DNA from: Candidatus Poribacteria bacterium
GTDB taxonomy: Bacteria > Poribacteria > WGA-4E > PCPOR2b
Length of the DNA: 64,000 nt
Reading direction: 5' to 3'
Assembly: GCA_022826645.1 (NCBI GenBank)
Contig: JAJDUM010000097.1
Span: 62,001-126,000 of the forward strand
Position 1 is the stretch's first letter; every line of letters starts with the position of its first letter. Shown here one piece after another: positions 22,687 to 57,014 of the stretch. The position numbers were made by a program, and so were the translations under genes. The notes under the pieces were generated by a model. The model was not told the origin of the DNA. It saw nothing but the letters and a program-made list of their open reading frames with translations, and ran no database searches.

Positions 22687-22847
22687 GGCTCAGGTCAAAA
22701 GAAAGTGCAGAGGCACAGAGAAAAGGGGATGGAAGGATAGAAGGCTGGAAGAATGGGGAAAAAGTCCCTTCCAATCTTCCAGCCTTCCGATATCACGTTT
22801 CACGCTTCACGTTTGGGTTTCCATTGCACAATTTCTTAACATGAGCC
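22687..22847. repeat. MITE-like element upstream of hsdR
   Basis: Terminal inverted repeats bound this 161 bp piece: GGCTCAGGTCAAAAGAAAGTGCA on the left, and on the right a sequence whose complement reads GGCTCATGTTAAGAAATTGTGCA. The inside has its own palindrome, GGAAGG..GGCTGGAAG pairing with CTTCCAGCCTTCC, and a run of CACGTTTCACGCTTCACGTTT. The ends match those of the element at 34341-34471 but the insides differ. No clear target duplication is seen. Confidence 0.55.
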
Positions 22848-24342: not shown

Positions 24343-24390
24343 TTACACCACTTCCTCCAAAATCATTGCTACTTCCGGATTGACCCTATT
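24343..24390 (-). pseudogene. Ghost of an hsdM 3' end next to hsdS
   Basis: Read on the minus strand, about 13-16 codons ending in TAA give ...NPEVAMILEEVV, only 1 bp before the hsdS ATG. The intact HsdM ends [12 protein letters not shown], and the DNA of the last ten codons is about 77% identical. The codons upstream of the fragment run into a stop inside repeat sequence. It appears that hsdM once ended right at hsdS and was later displaced by about 1.4 kb. Confidence 0.6.
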
Positions 24391-24395
24391 CATCG

Positions 24396-24735
24396 CCATC
24401 TATTATCCTGAAAATCCTTCCATCTTGAGAATCCTGATTCAGACAATTAACGGGATTGATACTATCTATTGCAATTCGTTATCCTGAAAATCCTTCCATC
24501 CTGAGAATCCTGATTCAGACAATAATCCGTGCAATCTGTGTCATCTGCTTAATCTGCGATTCAGACACAGGGCACATGTCGCCCCACTGGGGCTTTGGTG
24601 TTTGGTGGCTCCGGTGTTCTATAAACATATCGCCCCGCTGGGGCTAAATGAACCAACGCATCAGGTACGCTATCCTGAAAATCCTTTAATCCTGCCTGTC
24701 CCGATTTATCGGGGAAAATCCTGATTCAGATAATG
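24396..24735. repeat. Composite repeat array A (hsdS to ripA-like gene)
   Basis: This gap has no gene. It holds TATCCTGAAAATCCTT...GAGAATCCTGATTCAGACAA twice (near 24402 and 24480), a truncated third copy near 24670 interrupted by CCCGATTTATCGGGG, and the two-hairpin unit at 24571-24645. From about 24456 to 24690 it matches 25405-25783 at roughly nine bases in ten, apart from insertions in the latter. Frames in it have no start signal or family. Confidence 0.75.
24571..24645 (+). repeat. Two-hairpin dispersed repeat
   Basis: CACATGTC then GCCCCACTGGGGC (24581-24593), a 30-odd bp spacer, then CTATAAACATATC and GCCCCGCTGGGGC (24632-24644). Both stems are perfect five-base pairs around a three-base loop. 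Confidence 0.75.
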
Positions 24736-24740
24736 GACTT

Positions 24741-25187
24741 TCACCGCAGCAATAGGTAAATTCCGATAAGCAACACCGCCGCAAAGAGAGAGAAAAAGAT
24801 GATAGGAACAAAGGTCTCAACGACAGTTAGTTTCCAATATTTGTTCGGGTTCTCTCCTTCTTCGAGTAGTTCCCATTCCCGCTTGAAAAAAGGGTAGGCG
24901 AGTTTCTCCTCTAACTCATGTAGGGGTTTAAATTTACCTGAGTTTAACTGGCGGTAGGAACGGATGTGGATATACCAAGCGACTGCGAGTGATGTGCCCA
25001 ATAGCCCAAAGCCTATCATCAGACCACCAAGCGGCACCCCATTTCGGAGTTGTAATAGTGAGAGCACAGATAATCCTGACATGAGTAAAATATAAAAACG
25101 GTTTGTTGTGCCTCGTTGCCTGCTGACGCTGTCGGCGAGGCTTGCGTGGAGCTTGTAGATTTCTATTAGTTCTTGTTTTTCGTCCAT
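24741..25187 (-). CDS. RipA-like small membrane protein in the R-M locus
   Basis: A 148-residue membrane protein between hsdM and hsdS. The N-terminal helix is polar (ELIEIYKLHASLADSVSRQRG); then come two adjacent hydrophobic segments (FYILLMSGLSVLSLLQL and LGGLMIGFGLLGTSLAVAWYI), the block SYRQLNSGKFKPLHELEEKL, a segment with EWELLEEGENPNKYWKLT, and a C-terminal helix (IIFFSLFAAVLLIGIYLLL). The SYRQLNSGKF block and overall plan resemble the RipA family of octameric membrane proteins, as I remember it. AGGGAGG precedes the ATG. Related genes do occur in defence neighbourhoods, but a role with this R-M system is inference. Confidence 0.65.
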   Translation of the reverse strand: MDEKQELIEIYKLHASLADSVSRQRGTTNRFYILLMSGLSVLSLLQLRNGVPLGGLMIGFGLLGTSLAVAWYIHIRSYRQLNSGKFKPLHELEEKLAYPFFKREWELLEEGENPNKYWKLTVVETFVPIIFFSLFAAVLLIGIYLLLR

Positions 25188-25217
25188 GTTCGTGAAACCT
25201 CCCTAATGACATCTCTG

Positions 25218-25293
25218 CTATACACATTGCGCTCCTCTGGAGCGCGGGGATTGGATGCATCGGCATCCTATAGATATATCGCTCCGCTGGAGC
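25218..25293 (+). repeat. Two-hairpin dispersed repeat, GCTCC-stem copy
   Basis: CTATACACATTGC then GCTCCTCTGGAGC (25231-25243), a spacer, then CTATAGATATATC and GCTCCGCTGGAGC (25281-25293). Compared with the GCCCC/GGGGC copies, both arms of each stem have changed together to GCTCC/GGAGC. It ends 31 bp upstream of the RipA-like start, in the gene's 5' region. Confidence 0.75.
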
Positions 25294-25347
25294 GAAACAC
25301 CCCTAACGACCCACCGATGGATTGTCAACGACTAGCAGCTTGGATTA

Positions 25348-25383
25348 TTATACTCTATCCTTCAAAATCCCTGCAACATCCTG
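25348..25383 (-). pseudogene. Possible second hsdM-tail fragment
   Basis: On the minus strand the last codons read Q-D-V-A-G-I-L-K-D-R-V-stop, resembling the HsdM end V-T-M-I-L-E-D-T-V-stop and the fragment before hsdS (V-A-M-I-L-E-E-V-V). It sits at the hsdS-distal side of the RipA-like gene, at the edge of repeat array B. The match is short, so it could be chance. Confidence 0.35.
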
Positions 25384-25520
25384 TCTGAATCTGGATTTAC
25401 GGGATTGATGCTACCCACCGCCATTTATTATCCTGAAAATCCTTTCATCTTGAGAATCCTGATTCAGACAATAATCCGTGCAATCTGTGTCATCTGCTTA
25501 ATCGGCAATTCAGACATAGG

Positions 25521-25620
25521 GCACATGTCGGCCCGCTGGGGCTTTGGTGTTTGGTGGCTCCGGTGTTCTATAAACATATCGCCCCGCCCCGATAAATCGG
25601 GATTCAAAGCAACTGGGGCT
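25521..25620 (+). repeat. Two-hairpin repeat with palindrome inserted in loop
   Basis: The first hairpin is near 25530-25542. The second is GCCCCG at 25581-25586, an insert at 25587-25612 (CCCCGATAAATCGGG, then ATTCAAAGCAA), and CTGGGGC from 25613. Removing the insert restores the standard GCCCCGCTGGGGC. Confidence 0.75.
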
Positions 25621-25694
25621 AAAAGATTTGATCGTCTTGTTTTTTATCCGCGTAATCGTTTAATCCGTGTTAATCCGTGATTCAGACAATATTC

Positions 25695-25740
25695 ACATGT
25701 CGCTCCGCCCCGATAAATCGGGATTCAAAGCAACTGGGGC
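25695..25740 (+). repeat. Half two-hairpin unit with the same loop insert
   Basis: CACATGTC, GCTCCG (25702-25707), a 26 bp insert (25708-25733) identical to the one at 25587-25612, then CTGGGGC. The insert sits at exactly the same loop position. Confidence 0.75.
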
Positions 25741-25793
25741 TGAATGAACCAACGCATCAGGTACGCTATCCTGAAAATCCTGATTTAGACAAT

Positions 25794-27362
25794 TTACACC
25801 GTATCTTCCAAAATCATCGTAACATTCTCAGAAATCCGTTCTTCCAACTGATGCGCTTCGGCGTTCAGGACCTCCAGTTCCTCGTTGAGTTCACCCAATC
25901 GTTCCGAGAAATCAAACGTATCCCCCTCCCGCTCTGCGACGCCGACATACCGCCCCGGATTGAGGCTCCACCCTTGCGCCTCAATCTCCGCAATCGTCGC
26001 CACTTTGCAGAGGCCCGGCACGTCAACGTATACACCATCGGGGAACGGTTCTTCCATCAGTTCCGCGCTGTCGTGCTGGTTTTCCGGAGTTTCACCCCGA
26101 TACAGTCTCGCAATGTTAGACAGGAATTCAATCTGCTGCGGGGTAAACTCCCGATGCGCCCTATCGACCTGCTCGTAGATATGGCGGGCATCAATGAATA
26201 ATACCTGATCCGCCCGCTCGCTCTCCCCTTTGGACTTGTCGAAGAACCAAAGCGTGCAGGGCAGCGTAACGGTATAGAAGAAATTGGACGAGATACTCAC
26301 CATCACATCGACGGCGCGGGACTCGATAATCTGTCTACGGATCTCCAATTCAGAGGCGCGGGCATCGGCGGCGGAGTTCGCCATGACAAAACCAGCCCGA
26401 CCGGAGGCGTTAAGTGCGCTGTAAAACAACTGAATCCAAAGATAGTTGGCGTTATCCACGCGGGGCATCCCAAACGGGAAACGTGGATCATCCCGAAGCC
26501 GTTCCCTGTCCACCCGATCCACATTGAAAGGCGGATTCGCCATCACAAAGTCAAACGTATCCAAACACCGATGCGGGTCTTCGTAGTAGCTATTCGCCTG
26601 CCGGATATCGCCTTCCATTCCGTGCACGGCGAGGTTCATCTTGCAGAGCCGGATCGTTTCTGAAACGCGCTCTGTTCCATAAATACTGATCTGATCGGTC
26701 GCGTTCTGCTGGTGGTTATGGACGAACTCGGCACTCTGGACGAACATACCGCCGGAACCGCACGCTGGGTCCAAGATACGTCCCTGGAATGGTTGAATTA
26801 TTTCGACAATCAATTTTACGAGGGAGGTGGGTGTGAAGAACTCGCCGCCGCGCTGCCCTTCCGCCATGGCAAAGTTACCGAGGAAATACTCGTAAATCTT
26901 ACCAAACGCATCGCCTTCGATATCCATCGGGATCTCCGACATAGTGCGGAGTAGCTCGAAGAGGACACTCCTTTCGAGGCGGTTGTAGGTCTTGGGTAGG
27001 ACACCATCAAGTCCGCTATTTGCTTCCTCAATTGCCCGCATCGCATCGTTGATCGCTCGTGCGATATCCTTGTCCTCCGATAGGTTCAACAGATACTGGA
27101 AACGTGCTTCCTCTGGCAGGAAAAATACCCCACGAGCGTGATATGCTGCTGTCTGATCTATGATTCTGAAGCGCTTGTTATTCGCAGATGCCGTTTCGCG
27201 GATTTCCTGATCCACCTCCGTGAATTTGTGGTCTGCGTACCGTAAGAATATGAGTCCCAGTACAGGGGTTGAATACTCGGACGCCCGGAGCCGTGAGTTC
27301 GCTCTCAATTCATCTGCCATCGTCCATAGACGGCTTTCGATACCGTTCTGATTCGTATTCAA
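25794..27362 (-). CDS. hsdM: Type I restriction enzyme, methylase subunit
   Basis: N6-adenine DNA methyltransferase subunit of 522 residues. It shows the N-terminal helical domain ([30 protein letters not shown]), [18 protein letters not shown], the S-adenosylmethionine motif [11 protein letters not shown] near residue 198 and the catalytic NPPF near 274 ([12 protein letters not shown]). The start is TTG at 27362 with TGGAGATGA upstream; the next ATG (codon 15) would remove part of the usual N terminus. It is the first gene of the minus-strand locus hsdM, RipA-like, hsdS, small gene, hsdR. It ends at the edge of repeat array B. Confidence 0.95.
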
Positions 27363-27549
27363 ATTATCATCTCCAAACGCTCTTTTTTGGTTGAAATGGT
27401 ATTAGGTTGATTTTAACCCAATAGGACGCCAACCTTCGCGAAGTTTCCGAAGTTCCCCTAACCCCCCTAGCCCCCCTTGTCAGGGGGGAAATTCTTGTCA
27501 GGGGAGTTGGGGGATTTAGGGGGTTGGCTGCACATTGAGAGTGTCTAAG

Positions 27550-27854
27550 TAATTGAGGGGTGTGCATAAATCGCTTTCGTATGGGAGAGTGCAATCTGCG
27601 ATTCAGACAAATGGCACATGTCGCCCCGCTGGGGCTTTGGGGTATGGGCGCACAGAGATCGGGGCAAGGATGCCCCTCCCACAGCTATAAACATGTCGCC
27701 CCGCCCCGATAAGATCGGGATTCAGAGCAACTGGAGCTAAATGCACCCGGTCCCTTTCTAAAATAGTCCCGTTTCGCGTTCCGGTTTCTATCCTGAAAAT
27801 CCTTAAATCCTGAGAATCCTGATTCAGACAATAATGATGCACACCCCTCAACTA
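27550..27854. repeat. 305 bp element with terminal inverted repeats
   Basis: AATTGAGGGGTGTGCAT at the left end is matched by ATGCACACCCCTCAACTA at the right end (17 of 18 bases when complemented). Inside are a two-hairpin unit (27613-27738, with its loop insert at 27704-27730) and one TATCCTGAAAATCCTT...GATTCAGACAA repeat (27789-27832). No reading frame encodes a transposase, so it would be a non-autonomous element. Confidence 0.6.
27613..27738 (+). repeat. Two-hairpin repeat, third copy with loop insert
   Basis: GCCCCGCTGGGGC at 27623-27635, a 50-odd bp spacer, CTATAAACATGTC, GCCCCG (27698-27703), an insert of 27 bp (27704-27730, CCCCGATAAGATCGGG then ATTCAGAGCAA), then CTGGAGC. It is the same insert as at 25587 and 25708 with two differences. 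Confidence 0.75.
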
Positions 27855-27917
27855 ATTCTAAAATCTACCATAGTTCAAATCGTATTAGGTTGACTTTAAC
27901 CCAATAGGATCCCAACC

Positions 27918-28745
27918 TTAGAAAAACGGATTATGTGCCTTTTCTTCACCGACCGTTGTGGCGGGCCCGTGTCCCGGAAAGAGTTTTGTATCGTCAGGCA
28001 GCGAAAGCAGGTAATTCTTGACACCGGAAAGCAGATCGGTATACGAAACGTTCGCACCGCCGACCGATCCCGCAAATAGCGCGTCCCCGACAATTACTGT
28101 GGAACGGGTGTGGAAACTGCAACCGCCGGGTGTGTGGCCCGGTGTGTCGAGCGTTTTCACGGAGAGGTTACCGACCGCAACCGCATCCCCGTGGTTGAGG
28201 AGTCGGAGTTGCCGGGTGCTACGCGGCTGTGGCTCTTGGGCGTGGATATATGTCGGGCAGCCCGTCGCCCGTTCGATATCCATCAGACCGTTCGCATGAT
28301 CGCCGTGCGCGTGCGTCAGCAGGATCAGGGTAGGCTCGACGCCGGTCTCTGCTACCTTTTGCAGCACATCGTCTGGATGCGCTGCGGTGTCGATAATCGC
28401 AGCCTTATTGGTCGCTTTGCAGACCAATAGATACGCATGGACGGGCCAGCCACCGACATCCGCTGTGATAGTAGCAACCTCCAAAGCATCGTCGTATCCC
28501 GATGGGACAGGTTCCGGTCCCCAGCGTTCCATCGCAATGTCCGCCAACCGTGCACCGTTGAGATTGAGGCACGCCGCGATACTATGGACCTGTTCCTCTG
28601 TCGGTTTCAGCGTGTAGTCCTCCATCTGAGACACCTGCGCCTCCGTGAGTCCTGCACCGGCAGCAACTTCACCCACGCTCAGGTCGTTCCCACGCCTCGC
28701 CTTGCCAATAATGTCTCCAAATTCGTCTTCAAGTGTATAAGCCAT
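27918..28745 (-). CDS. HTH-XRE and metallo-beta-lactamase fusion protein
   Basis: A 275-residue protein with two parts. Residues 1-70 look like an XRE-type helix-turn-helix (LSVGEVAAGAGLTEAQVSQMEDYTLKPTEEQV). From about 85 there is a metallo-beta-lactamase fold of the glyoxalase II kind: THAHGDH near 141-147, DTPGHTPGG, GDALFAG and FPGHGPATTVGEEKAHNPF. All expected metal ligands are there. The MBL part probably hydrolyses a small thioester or persulfide-type substrate; the HTH could give it DNA-binding autoregulation, or may just be a domain with that shape. The stop codon lies inside a direct repeat. Confidence 0.85.
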   Translation of the reverse strand: MAYTLEDEFGDIIGKARRGNDLSVGEVAAGAGLTEAQVSQMEDYTLKPTEEQVHSIAACLNLNGARLADIAMERWGPEPVPSGYDDALEVATITADVGGWPVHAYLLVCKATNKAAIIDTAAHPDDVLQKVAETGVEPTLILLTHAHGDHANGLMDIERATGCPTYIHAQEPQPRSTRQLRLLNHGDAVAVGNLSVKTLDTPGHTPGGCSFHTRSTVIVGDALFAGSVGGANVSYTDLLSGVKNYLLSLPDDTKLFPGHGPATTVGEEKAHNPFF

Positions 28746-28789
28746 TGTTGATTATCTCCTTTGTCGGGAAATTAAATTGAGTCAACCGC

Positions 28790-28820
28790 TGCTCGCAGTG
28801 GATTGACAAATCCACTGCAC
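28790..28820. repeat. Palindromic repeat, copy 2
   Basis: Identical over 31 bp to 19131-19161, with the same 10 bp stem. Together the two copies bracket the type I R-M and MBL region. Confidence 0.75.
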
Positions 28821-32423: not shown

Positions 32424-32696
32424 ATGGAATTTGAGTGGGATGAAAACAAAGCAAAAACTAATTTGTCGAAGCACAGGGTTTCGTTTGACGAGGCGAAAAC
32501 TGTTTTCGATGATCTGTTCTATGTTGACTTCTATGATCCTGACTACTCTGGTGATGAAGACCGATATATCATTATTGGTGAGTCGCAACAACGTAGTTTA
32601 TTGATTGTGTCATATACAGAACGCGAGGATAAGATTCGTTTAATCAGTGCAAGAGAAGTAACCAAAAGGGAAAGAGAATATTATGAAGAAGGTTGA
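32424..32696 (+). CDS. brnT: BrnT family toxin
   Basis: A 90-residue RelE-fold ribonuclease toxin of a type II toxin-antitoxin pair. The start MEFEWDENKAKTNLSKHRVSFDEAKTVF (residue run shown only as a landmark, shortened) and the motif DPDYSGDEDRYIIIGES are typical. Near the end, YTEREDKIRLISAREVTKRE is the family's conserved strand with Arg residues. Its last 14 bp overlap the next gene, the usual arrangement for brnT and its antitoxin. It acts by cleaving RNA and is neutralised by its partner. Confidence 0.88.
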   Translation: MEFEWDENKAKTNLSKHRVSFDEAKTVFDDLFYVDFYDPDYSGDEDRYIIIGESQQRSLLIVSYTEREDKIRLISAREVTKREREYYEEG

Positions 32697-32922
32697 TACC
32701 GAAATGAACGACGAACTTCGTCCAGAGTACGATTTGAAGAGCTTACGGGTGAGAAAGGTTGGTCCCAAACGGAAGAGTTTCAGGGAACAATCTATCCAGT
32801 TAGAGCCGGATGTCGCTGCTATATTTCCGGATTCTGAATCGGTAAATGAGGCGCTGCGATTTTTAATCCGAATTACTAGAGAACATAAACCTACATTCAC
32901 AGGAGCGGACAGTAACGACTAA
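32683..32922 (+). CDS. BrnA-like antitoxin
   Basis: A 79-residue partner of the BrnT toxin, overlapping its 3' end by 14 bp. Start MKKVDTEMNDELRPEYDLKSL, then a basic stretch (RVRKVGPKRKSFREQ) and IFPDSESVNEALRFLI, a helix pattern seen in this antitoxin group. BrnA-type antitoxins bind the toxin and the operon's own promoter as ribbon-helix-helix proteins. The coding order toxin then antitoxin fits the family. Confidence 0.78.
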   Translation: MKKVDTEMNDELRPEYDLKSLRVRKVGPKRKSFREQSIQLEPDVAAIFPDSESVNEALRFLIRITREHKPTFTGADSND

Positions 32923-34078: not shown

Positions 34079-34306
34079 ATGGTGTGTGATATTTGTGGAA
34101 AGTCGGGTGCGCGTCAACGTTATATTTCGCGGAGTTACGGGGAAGGAGAATCTCTGCTTGTCATCGAAGGTGTGCCCGTGATAAGCTGCCCTCATTGTGG
34201 TGAGAGCTATTTGACAGCGCATACACTACATGAAATTGAGCGTATTAAACGTCAGCGAGGAGGGATTGCGACTAAACGCCCCGTAGCGGTCGCTGCTTTT
34301 GCATAA
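34079..34306 (+). CDS. YgiT-type zinc-finger protein
   Basis: A 75-residue protein with two CxxC pairs: CDICGKSGA near the start and CPHCGESYLT near residue 36. This is the YgiT/MqsA-type zinc-finger domain of antitoxins, here with no C-terminal HTH. AGGGAG before the ATG at 34079 favours this start, but the frame is open back to an ATG at 34034 overlapping DUF433. The usual partners are MqsR-type or DUF4258 toxins; none is present. The C terminus is basic (RQRGGIATKRP). Confidence 0.75.
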   Translation: MVCDICGKSGARQRYISRSYGEGESLLVIEGVPVISCPHCGESYLTAHTLHEIERIKRQRGGIATKRPVAVAAFA

Positions 34307-34340
34307 CCCGGCGGATTTGGTTAAGAGAGAATTCAAACTT

Positions 34341-34471
34341 GGATCATGTAAAAAGAAAGTGCAAAATGCGAAGCGAAATCGTAGGGGCGGGGTTTCCCCG
34401 CCCGTAGACGGGTTGGGGAACCCAACCCCTACAAAAGCTCGGTTTTTGTTGCATACTTTCTTAACATGAGC
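34341..34471. repeat. MITE-like element with target duplication
   Basis: Left end GATCATGTAAAAAGAAAGTGC and right end GCATACTTTCTTAACATGAGC form imperfect terminal inverted repeats. The inside has two nested palindromes of GTAGGGGCGGGG..CCCCGCCC and GGGTTGGGG..CCCAACCCC types. The 9 bp TTCAAACTT flanks it on both sides (34332-34340 and 34472-34480), as expected for a target-site duplication. No reading frame of length. The ends match the element at 22687-22847. Confidence 0.7.
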
Positions 34472-34519
34472 TTCAAACTTAATGAGCTTCAAACTTAAGT
34501 TTCGGTTTCTTGATTAACC

Positions 34520-54278: not shown

Positions 54279-57014
54279 ATGAAAATGGTATTCTGTTTTG
54301 CAATCATGCTACTTATTTTTCTGATGCTTGTATCTTTGTCCAACAGTTTTGCCTTAGACACGCCACCCGAGAATATGGTACGGGTCATTTACTTTCTCCC
54401 CAATGACCGTCAACCCCAGCCAGACATAGATGCGAAGTTGGATACGTTAATAAAAAACGTACAACAATCTTACGCTGAAGTGATGGAAAAGCAAGGGTTC
54501 GGTAGAAAAACCTTTAGGCTTGAGACAGATGACACCGGAAAGGTTGTGGTGCATCATATAGAGGGGCAGTTCTCTGATGTGCATTATCATACGGATATTG
54601 TTTTAAAAGTCCATAAAGAAATCGACAAACATTTTGATCTGTCAACAAACATCTACCTCGTCGCGCTAGATATAAGCAACGAATCGGTACTATGCGGACT
54701 GGCATCCAACGATTTGGCAATCATAAATGCTTTCAGCGGGTGTTTCGGCGTTGCGTTTGCCGCTCATGAACTCGGACACAGCTTTGGATTGGCACACGAT
54801 CGCCGCAGAGATGCTAAACGCACCTCGACTACATATCACGCTGATTTGATGGTTACTTCTGATTGTGCTGCCGAATGGTTGGATGTCCATCCGTATTTCA
54901 ACACAAGCCAAAACATCGCCAACCACAATACGGAGATTCAGCAGCTTGAAACTGGACTTGTATCGTCGACCGAATCTATACGTTTCCGCTTTCAGATAAG
55001 TGATCCAGATGGACTTCATCAAGTACAGGTAAGGTTTAGTTATTGGGAATTAGGAGCTTGTGAACGATTGAGTGGTCAGAGCGAGGTGTATGAATTCAAC
55101 TTTATTCCTGCATTATATGGAATCCATGAAAATTTCGGGCTTCATGTTATTGATGTACATGGTAATTTGACAGTACGGCACTTCCCGATAGATGATTCCC
55201 TTCTGCTGCCTCTACTCAACCAATCGGTGTCAATACCGGATGCAAATTTATCAAGCGCGATTCGGGAGACTCTCAACCTGAAGCAAGGCGACAGTCTCAC
55301 ACGGTTGAATCTGCTAAAACTTACTCATCTGAATGCTCATAACCGTCAGATAACAGACCTCACCGGATTGGAACATGCAACGCAATTGCAAAACTTAAAT
55401 CTTTCAGGGAATCAGGTAATCGATATAACCGCAATAGCAAATTTGACGCGCCTACACGTCTTGCAGCTTTCATGGAATCAGATAAGCGATATAACCGCAA
55501 TCACCAATTTGAAGAACCTACAGTACTTATATCTTTCGGGGAATCAGATAAGCGACATTACCCCAATCATAAACTTGAAGAATCTAGAGCAGTTAAATCT
55601 TTCATGGAATCAGATAAAAGATATAACCGTAATCGCAAACTTGCAGAACCTATATTACTTATATCTTTCATGGAATCAGATAAGTGACGTAAGCCCAATT
55701 GCGACCTCAAACCACTTGATACATTTAGATATTAGCAATAATACGATATCCGACTTTTCGCCTTTAGATGGGTTAACCGCGGGTATCAACTTGGTGGGCA
55801 ACCCAGGGGTCCCTTCAGGCGGTCCGAAAATAGAGGGACCATGGTTATGGGTGATCGTTCCGACAGCAGGGAGGTCCGGTCGAGGTGCTGCTGCTTCTGG
55901 TATAGATTTTCTGGCACAAGCAAGTAGTGGTGGAATAACGGAGTTAAAGGTTTCAACAGACGGGGCAAAGGAGGGAGCCTCTGTCGGAGGCAGCCTGTGG
56001 ACAACCGGCAAAATTCCCGCAGTGAGCGATAACATCAACACAATGGTGAACGCGACCGGTCTAGGAACAGGCAATATAGACCACCATGTTGCCTATGGTT
56101 TGATTGCCTTGAATGCGTCGCGTGAACAAGACACAATGATGTTTGCCGGGAGCGATGATGCTGTCAAGGTTTGGCTCAATGGACAGTTGGTTCACAACAA
56201 TCCTGTGAACCGAGGGGCTAGCGGTTATCAGGATTTTTTTCCTGTTACATTGGAGCCGGGAACAAACATTTTATTAGTCGCTGTTTATGAGGGAACGGGT
56301 GGTTGGAGCGGTTTTTTTGGATTTGCACCTGACGCGGAATATACGGTACTCGCCCCTGGGGCCAGCGAGATCCACCCTAAACCTGCCGATGTGAATAGCG
56401 ATGGTGTGGTAAACATTCTGGATTTGGTGTCGGTTGCATCAAGTTTCGGACAGACAGGGAAAATTCGTGCAGATGTCAACGGTGATAGCGTAGTCAACAT
56501 CCTAGATTTGGTGCTCGTTGCCAATACTTTTGCAAACATACCCGCCGCGCCTACCTTAAAATCCCAGACTTTTGCGAGACTCACCGCCACCGAGGTTGAA
56601 GATTGGCTCACCCAAGCGCAACAGATGGCACTGACAGATCCTGTTTATCTGCGCGGCGTTGCTGTGTTGGAACATCTCCTTGCTGCGTTGAGTCCTAAAG
56701 AGACTGTACTGCTCGCTAATTACCCAAACCCGTTCAACCCGGAGACATGGATACCGTATCACCTCGCCGACGCTGCCAGTGTGACGATCACGATTTATGA
56801 CATCAAAGGTATGATGGTGCGCCAATTGGACCTAGGCCATCAGCCTGCGGGGTATTACACGGATCGGTCAAACGCAGCCTACTGGGACGGCCTCAACGCA
56901 AGTGGGGAAACAGTGGCAAGTGGTGTCTATTTCTATCAACTCCGGGTGTCTTCATCCCAATCTATCGGGGCGGGGAACTATTCAGCCACGAGACGGATGG
57001 TAATCGTCAAGTAG
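54279..57014 (+). CDS. Secreted zinc protease with LRRs, dockerin-like and FlgD-like domains
   Basis: A 911-residue mosaic protein, start at ATG 54279 after AAAAAGGAGA. A signal peptide (FAIMLLIFLMLVSLSNSFA) precedes a metzincin-like domain with HELGHSFGLAHD (His163, Glu164, His167). About residues 325-510 are leucine-rich repeats of 22 residues (LNLSGNQVIDITAIANL). About 535-690 is a PA14-like carbohydrate-binding part with SDDAVKVWLNGQLV. About 704-765 has two dockerin-like EF-hand loops, DVNSDGVVNILDL and DVNGDSVVNILDL. The end is an Ig-like sorting domain, NYPNPFNPETWIPY to TRRMVIVK. A surface enzyme that binds and digests host or matrix material is plausible. Confidence 0.82.
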   Translation: MKMVFCFAIMLLIFLMLVSLSNSFALDTPPENMVRVIYFLPNDRQPQPDIDAKLDTLIKNVQQSYAEVMEKQGFGRKTFRLETDDTGKVVVHHIEGQFSDVHYHTDIVLKVHKEIDKHFDLSTNIYLVALDISNESVLCGLASNDLAIINAFSGCFGVAFAAHELGHSFGLAHDRRRDAKRTSTTYHADLMVTSDCAAEWLDVHPYFNTSQNIANHNTEIQQLETGLVSSTESIRFRFQISDPDGLHQVQVRFSYWELGACERLSGQSEVYEFNFIPALYGIHENFGLHVIDVHGNLTVRHFPIDDSLLLPLLNQSVSIPDANLSSAIRETLNLKQGDSLTRLNLLKLTHLNAHNRQITDLTGLEHATQLQNLNLSGNQVIDITAIANLTRLHVLQLSWNQISDITAITNLKNLQYLYLSGNQISDITPIINLKNLEQLNLSWNQIKDITVIANLQNLYYLYLSWNQISDVSPIATSNHLIHLDISNNTISDFSPLDGLTAGINLVGNPGVPSGGPKIEGPWLWVIVPTAGRSGRGAAASGIDFLAQASSGGITELKVSTDGAKEGASVGGSLWTTGKIPAVSDNINTMVNATGLGTGNIDHHVAYGLIALNASREQDTMMFAGSDDAVKVWLNGQLVHNNPVNRGASGYQDFFPVTLEPGTNILLVAVYEGTGGWSGFFGFAPDAEYTVLAPGASEIHPKPADVNSDGVVNILDLVSVASSFGQTGKIRADVNGDSVVNILDLVLVANTFANIPAAPTLKSQTFARLTATEVEDWLTQAQQMALTDPVYLRGVAVLEHLLAALSPKETVLLANYPNPFNPETWIPYHLADAASVTITIYDIKGMMVRQLDLGHQPAGYYTDRSNAAYWDGLNASGETVASGVYFYQLRVSSSQSIGAGNYSATRRMVIVK
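55401..55730 (+). repeat. 66 bp tandem repeats inside the LRR region
   Basis: Five units start at 55401, 55467, 55533, 55599 and 55665, each beginning CTTTC(A/G)(T/G)GGAATCAG. Each is exactly 66 bp, i.e. one 22-residue leucine-rich repeat. The high DNA similarity between units shows recent copying. Confidence 0.8.

Follow-up and report, generated by a model that had tools for sequence, protein, structure and literature searches.

The element and its surroundings

The window, by which we mean the whole stretch of 64,000 nucleotides of Candidatus Poribacteria DNA that was analysed, contains at positions 34341-34472 of its plus strand a short repeat that is built like a MITE. The upstream neighbour is a 90-aa frame ending at 34306; it has no Pfam match and adjoins a DUF433 gene. 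Further on downstream, a phytanoyl-CoA dioxygenase gene is found. A BrnT-type toxin gene (PF04365) occupies 32424-32696; behind it comes a short frame (32683-32922) that has no Pfam match, and the two are perhaps a toxin-antitoxin pair.

The element comprises 132 bp. Its imperfect inverted ends (TIRs) of 24 bp, GGATCATGTAAAAAGAAAGTGCAA on the left (34341-34364, plus strand) and AGCTCATGTTAAGAAAGTATGCAA on the right (34449-34472, read on the minus strand), are identical to each other in 16 of 24 positions. Two GC-rich palindromes (34381-34403; 34411-34432), which are predicted to fold as hairpins, take up the interior at 34381-34432. When the single-strand DNA of the entire element is folded, a z-score of -5.2 is obtained, and none of 200 shuffled sequences was equally stable. 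The only open reading frame of at least 60 aa over the element is a mechanical one of 88 aa on the minus strand that overruns it on both sides; a transposase gene of its own is not contained in this short element.

Two copies of TCAAACTT, at 34333-34340 and 34473-34480, flank the element and represent its target duplication. A MITE-like element with inverted ends and a flanking duplication had already been recognised in the first-pass annotation, and this assignment is correct: the unit recurs, with its TIR pair and with duplications that are the copies' own, and an empty site exists. The limits had, however, been set at 34341-34471, with a 9-bp duplication, TTCAAACTT, that begins at 34332 on the left and at 34472 on the right. 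The element is best bounded as given above, with 8 bp duplicated.

The 9-mer TTCAAACTT occurs at 34332-34340, 34472-34480 and 34488-34496, and nowhere else in the 64-kb window, whichever strand is read. Three or more matches were also seen in 3 of 100 shuffles, and by itself the 9-mer is weak evidence for an insertion. That the element is real follows from the recurrence of the whole unit in the genome, not from the 9-mer alone. The third copy of the 9-mer falls, as had been noticed before, inside a short tandem duplicate. The latter is a perfect 16-bp duplication, ATGAGCTTCAAACTTA x2, at 34466-34497, the unit consisting of the element's last bases, the target copy and one base. Because the unit holds the element's own last bases and the homologous site is single-copy in two relatives, G002 and G004, we infer that the tandem arose at or after the insertion.

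Copies, target duplications and an empty site

The window element belongs to a family. Its own genome (6.04 Mb in 127 contigs) yields at least 52 matches, a lower bound obtained by scoring 40 of 203 first-look candidates; 19 of them, counting the window copy, include both ends, and 7 are limited to the palindromic centre. The copies lie at unrelated sites and differ in their flanks. The end motif GGYTCATGTNAARAANNNNTGCAA is met at 196 sites of this genome if up to 2 mismatches are allowed, versus none for the reversed control. Copy numbers are to be read as lower bounds throughout, since in many searches the first-look candidates were scored only in part. In a relative from the same genus, G001, which is assembled as a single contig, 80 end-motif sites were counted. 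Copies of the element were matched at E <= 0.001 in 15 of 21 genomes, the own one included, the matches listed for the more distant genomes covering an end or a palindrome only. A collection of named genomes contained the right-end motif in exact form in 34 stretches, each of them titled Poribacteria.

The TIR pairs of the own genome (n=30) fall into length classes between 91 and 207 bp. In some copies (L020, L022, L025 and L027, all from the own genome), a further palindrome, for instance CCCGATTTATCGGG, stands between the two internal ones, and the longer classes of 156-207 bp result. Two further copies, L007 and L063, occupy the same insertion site in two species, G000 and G003, with 12-base flanks that are identical on both sides. 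To judge from this shared site, some copies either predate the split of the two species or were shared between them.

The size of the target duplication was determined from 51 TIR pairs. A copy known under several locus identifiers was merged before counting, and pairs were excluded if their mismatches exceeded 5 at one end or 7 over both ends, if their length was not within about 55-373 bp, or if a flank was shorter than 25 bp. The 51 pairs still include the insertion seen from two genomes (L007, L063) and two overlapping pairs that have one right end in common (L084). No duplication was counted for any of these four. Exact direct repeats in strict register measured 8 bp in 23 pairs and 9 bp in 4, the other 24 pairs having neither. 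With permuted right flanks, the same 51 pairs gave on average 0.50 exact repeats of 8 bp and 0.09 of 9 bp. Among the 30 pairs of the own genome, the repeat measures 8 bp in 15 and 9 bp in 4, and neither length is seen in 11.

The window copy, taken as 34341-34472 with TCAAACTT on both sides, is counted among the 8-bp pairs. The base that extends the match to nine is the element's own final one, T here and C in 42 of the 51 pairs. If this last base is allowed to join the repeat, 3 of the 51 pairs, the window copy included, can be read as 9 bp. Probably, the apparent 9 bp of the window copy are composed of the 8-bp duplication TCAAACTT and a terminal C-to-T change. Of course, neither the 8- nor the 9-bp reading does without a single additional event, be it a substitution at the terminus or the loss of the last base; 8 bp is the better guess, because it is the mode of the family. 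The duplication reported in the first-pass annotation stands, yet its size is probably 8 rather than 9 bp, the family being mainly of the 8-bp type.

A comparison with relatives, as had been recommended at the outset, revealed the empty site in G002. There, the flank downstream of the element, from 34488 on, is preserved at 92% identity, and the window's left flank is found directly left of it: GGTTGAGAGAGAATTCAAATTAAGTTTCGG in G002 corresponds to GGTTAAGAGAGAATTCAAACTT, the element and TTCAAACTTAAGTTTCGG in the window. The homologous site has a single TTCAAATT; one base of the target is missing, and the similarity fades about 20 bases left of it. In G004, a single TTCAAACTT is present at the homologous site, within TTCAAACTTAA, and the left neighbour differs. 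In G005 the upstream genes are kept and similarity to the window returns no earlier than 34780; G003 is similar from 34526 onwards. Because the site is single-copy in G002 and G004, one target copy was present before the insertion. The same two sites contradict the idea that TTCAAACTT might have been part of a pre-existing tandem array that had nothing to do with an insertion.

IS1595 elements with the same ends

A transposase had been postulated to act on the element in trans, and its ends were to be sought next to such a gene. They are indeed found there: in the own genome and in relatives, they bound an IS of about 985 bp that belongs to the IS1595 family. The Pfam model of the IS1595 transposase (PF12762) has matches at 13 places in 8 of 10 genomes, and in 7 genomes these are above the cut-off. 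Two of the 13 loci, G000:C25 (985 bp) and G002:C124 (988 bp), are bounded by a MITE-type TIR pair, with the ends GGCTCATGTTAAGATTTAGTGCAA and GGCTCATGTAAAAACAGAGTGCAT; the other 11 lack such ends. The two IS copies are 94% identical, their similarity stops at the TIRs, and their flanks are unrelated. Both transposase frames are interrupted, the pieces matching IS1595 models. At these different sites of two species (L165:1365-2349 and L160:1362-2349), the frame is broken at the same place, after seven A, which may reflect either common descent or a frameshift type of expression.

The ends of the MITE and of the IS correspond one to one, left with left and right with right, if the MITE is written with the end that matches the transposase-5' side of the IS on the left. 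The left TIR of the window element shares 20 of 24 positions with the transposase-5' end of the G000:C25 IS, and the right TIR shares 18 of 24 with the 3' end of that IS. For the ends that are common in the MITE family, the agreement with the same IS amounts to 21/24 on the left and 22/24 on the right. Since the interior of the MITE does not resemble the IS, it is the ends and the size of the duplication that link the MITE to IS1595.

An uninterrupted transposase with MITE-type ends, as a source of the recent MITE copies in the genus, was not found in its six genomes. A search for long TIR pairs around the unpaired sites of G001 (20 stretches) and in the 34 named Poribacteria stretches disclosed no duplication-flanked autonomous element. 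Of the spans in G001, two were candidates but contained no transposase-like frame as judged by eye, and from the unpaired TIRs in G000 no transposase was reached. The IS1595 match in G001 is below the cut-off and has a stop; partial remnants of the IS are also present in this genome.

When 72 genomes of the order were searched with the DNA of the IS, matches were obtained in 25, some of them over an end only (23-49 bases in G003, G004 and G029); up to 6 candidates were scored per genome, and these figures are lower bounds. TIR-bounded elements of 984-1019 bp were present at 9 of the 30 loci returned, G000:C25 and G002:C124 included. None of these nine full-length copies, seven of which have both flanks, is surrounded by a duplication, as would fit old copies.

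One of the genomes, G023, contains an uninterrupted transposase of 307 aa inside a TIR-bounded element of 984 bp. The protein scores 101.9 bits with the NCBIfam model for IS1595 (NF033547, cut-off 75) and 49.5 bits with PF12762 (cut-off 27); a putative N-terminal zinc ribbon (PF12760) reaches 23.8 bits versus a cut-off of 25.4. The ends are more diverged from those of the MITE than the ones described above, being identical in 18/24 and 19/24 positions. The element is present in several copies, which are located at contig ends. Among the flanks that adjoin exact ends (4 left, 7 right), two of the left ones each agree with one on the right over precisely 8 bp: AGCCAAAT for contigs C36 and C43, and GAAGATTG for C127 and C15. 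The same two matches were obtained if up to 4 mismatches in the ends were allowed (7 left, 9 right flanks). C36 and C43, and likewise C127 and C15, would accordingly be neighbours in the genome, and the two insertions can be considered as reconstructed.

Proposed mobilisation, alternatives and known systems

The element at 34341-34472 is very probably a MITE of a Poribacteria family whose movement in trans depends on transposases of the IS1595 family. The identity of the mover is deduced from the ends and the duplication size. Against this reading count the interrupted IS frames in G000 and G002, the missing uninterrupted transposase in the genus, the nine full-length IS copies that show no duplication, the 24 pairs that have no exact 8- or 9-bp repeat, and the 11 IS1595 loci that lack the TIR pair. 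The transposase would bind the ends of about 24 bp (approximately GGYTCATGTNAARAANNNGTGCAA) and move the DNA between them to a target, which would usually be AT-rich. Joining with a stagger of 8 bp, sometimes of 9 bp, would then create the target duplication. The window copy would thereby have been inserted into the intergenic site GAATTCAAACTTAAGTTTCGG, TCAAACTT being duplicated, and the third copy of the 9-mer would stem from a later tandem duplication of 16 bp that spans the right junction.

Whether the family persists in the genus without a resident autonomous partner is a more delicate question. We consider this as a tentative possibility, because G001 has 80 end sites but only a sub-cut-off IS1595 match and remnants, and because the IS frames of G000 and G002 are broken. 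If true, the copies with intact duplications were moved by transposases that have since gone, or by a partner that is missing from the assemblies.

The first-pass annotation had favoured a transposase of the IS4/IS5, the Tn3 or a similar type, acting in trans and producing a true 9-bp duplication. Action in trans is a supported inference, yet the type of enzyme has to be revised. Inverted ends and a direct duplication are shared by IS4/IS5 and Tn3 elements with the MITE, DDE_Tnp_1 (IS4/IS5-type, PF01609) transposases exist at 18 loci in 3 of 4 genomes searched, and the literal 9-bp repeat at the window element, the 4 copies with 9 bp in register and the 3 that join them if the last base is reassigned would also comply. 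The MITE-type TIR pair, however, is present at none of the 18 DDE_Tnp_1 loci, several of which are cut by contig ends, whereas IS1595 elements carry it; an IS4/IS5 partner was rejected on these grounds. Moreover, G001 with its 80 TIR sites has no DDE_Tnp_1 match, the mode of the family is 8 bp, and Tn3 elements make 5-bp target duplications. Such a mover is largely contradicted already and appears highly improbable.

Just as little credit is given to another family with duplications of 8-9 bp, be it ISL3, IS256 or others. The duplication size would fit ISL3- or IS256-like families, and the MITE ends presumably resemble those of ISL3. Against this, the search for such families covered PF01610 (DDE_Tnp_ISL3) and PF00872 (Transposase_mut), neither of which was detected in any of 10 genomes, and both candidates were dismissed as partners. 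That the repeat is not a transposon at all but a palindromic intergenic sequence of the REP or terminator type, with flanking repeats by chance, is hardly credible: the strong internal hairpins and the 7 own-genome matches over the palindromic centre would suit it, but it is already contradicted by exact duplications far above those of permuted flanks and by the empty site, at which the flanks on both sides correspond.

The IS1595-linked MITE, as we prefer to see it, has counterparts elsewhere. Members of the IS1595 family/Merlin superfamily are characterised by a DDE_Tnp_IS1595 domain, a single transposase gene and usually 8-bp duplications (PMC8101967), and the partner IS in G023 shares these three traits. 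The window element differs from them in that it encodes no transposase and shares the ends only. An IS1595-linked MITE has also been described from a host given as 'H walsbyi', which we take to be Haloquadratum walsbyi, an archaeon. This MITE, assigned to ISHwa6 of the IS1595 family, is 165 bp long and present in 7 copies, with inverted repeats of 25 bp and direct repeats of 8 bp (PMC3852290). Compared by description, it is, like the window MITE, short, non-autonomous and tied to an IS1595-family IS; host and partner IS are different, and the Poribacteria family has several length classes.

The Poribacteria family was not found in the literature searched, which consisted of open-licence papers. 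It is new to that literature, but its kind is already known and it is ordinary mobile DNA; the understanding of MITEs is unchanged. What has been gained is that a likely partner transposase, defined ends, a duplication size and an empty site can now be assigned to a repeat family that is abundant in Ca. Poribacteria, and that a bacterial IS1595-linked MITE can be placed beside the ISHwa6-linked one of PMC3852290. This helps annotation, and it accounts for some intergenic palindromic repeats and for some of the contig breaks in G023.

The window contains further repeats. A second element, of 161 bp, lies at 22687-22847 (plus strand); its TIRs are of the type described here, but its interior is unlike that of the MITE and no exact duplication flanks it. 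Other dispersed repeats crowd the region 24377-28820, where families D2, D3, D9-D11 and D13 are represented, together with a single copy of D12; the palindrome CCCGATAAATCGGG lies within one of these repeats. Finally, a repeat with a period of 66 bases is located at 55327-55722, its copies being 64-77% identical to the reference copy.
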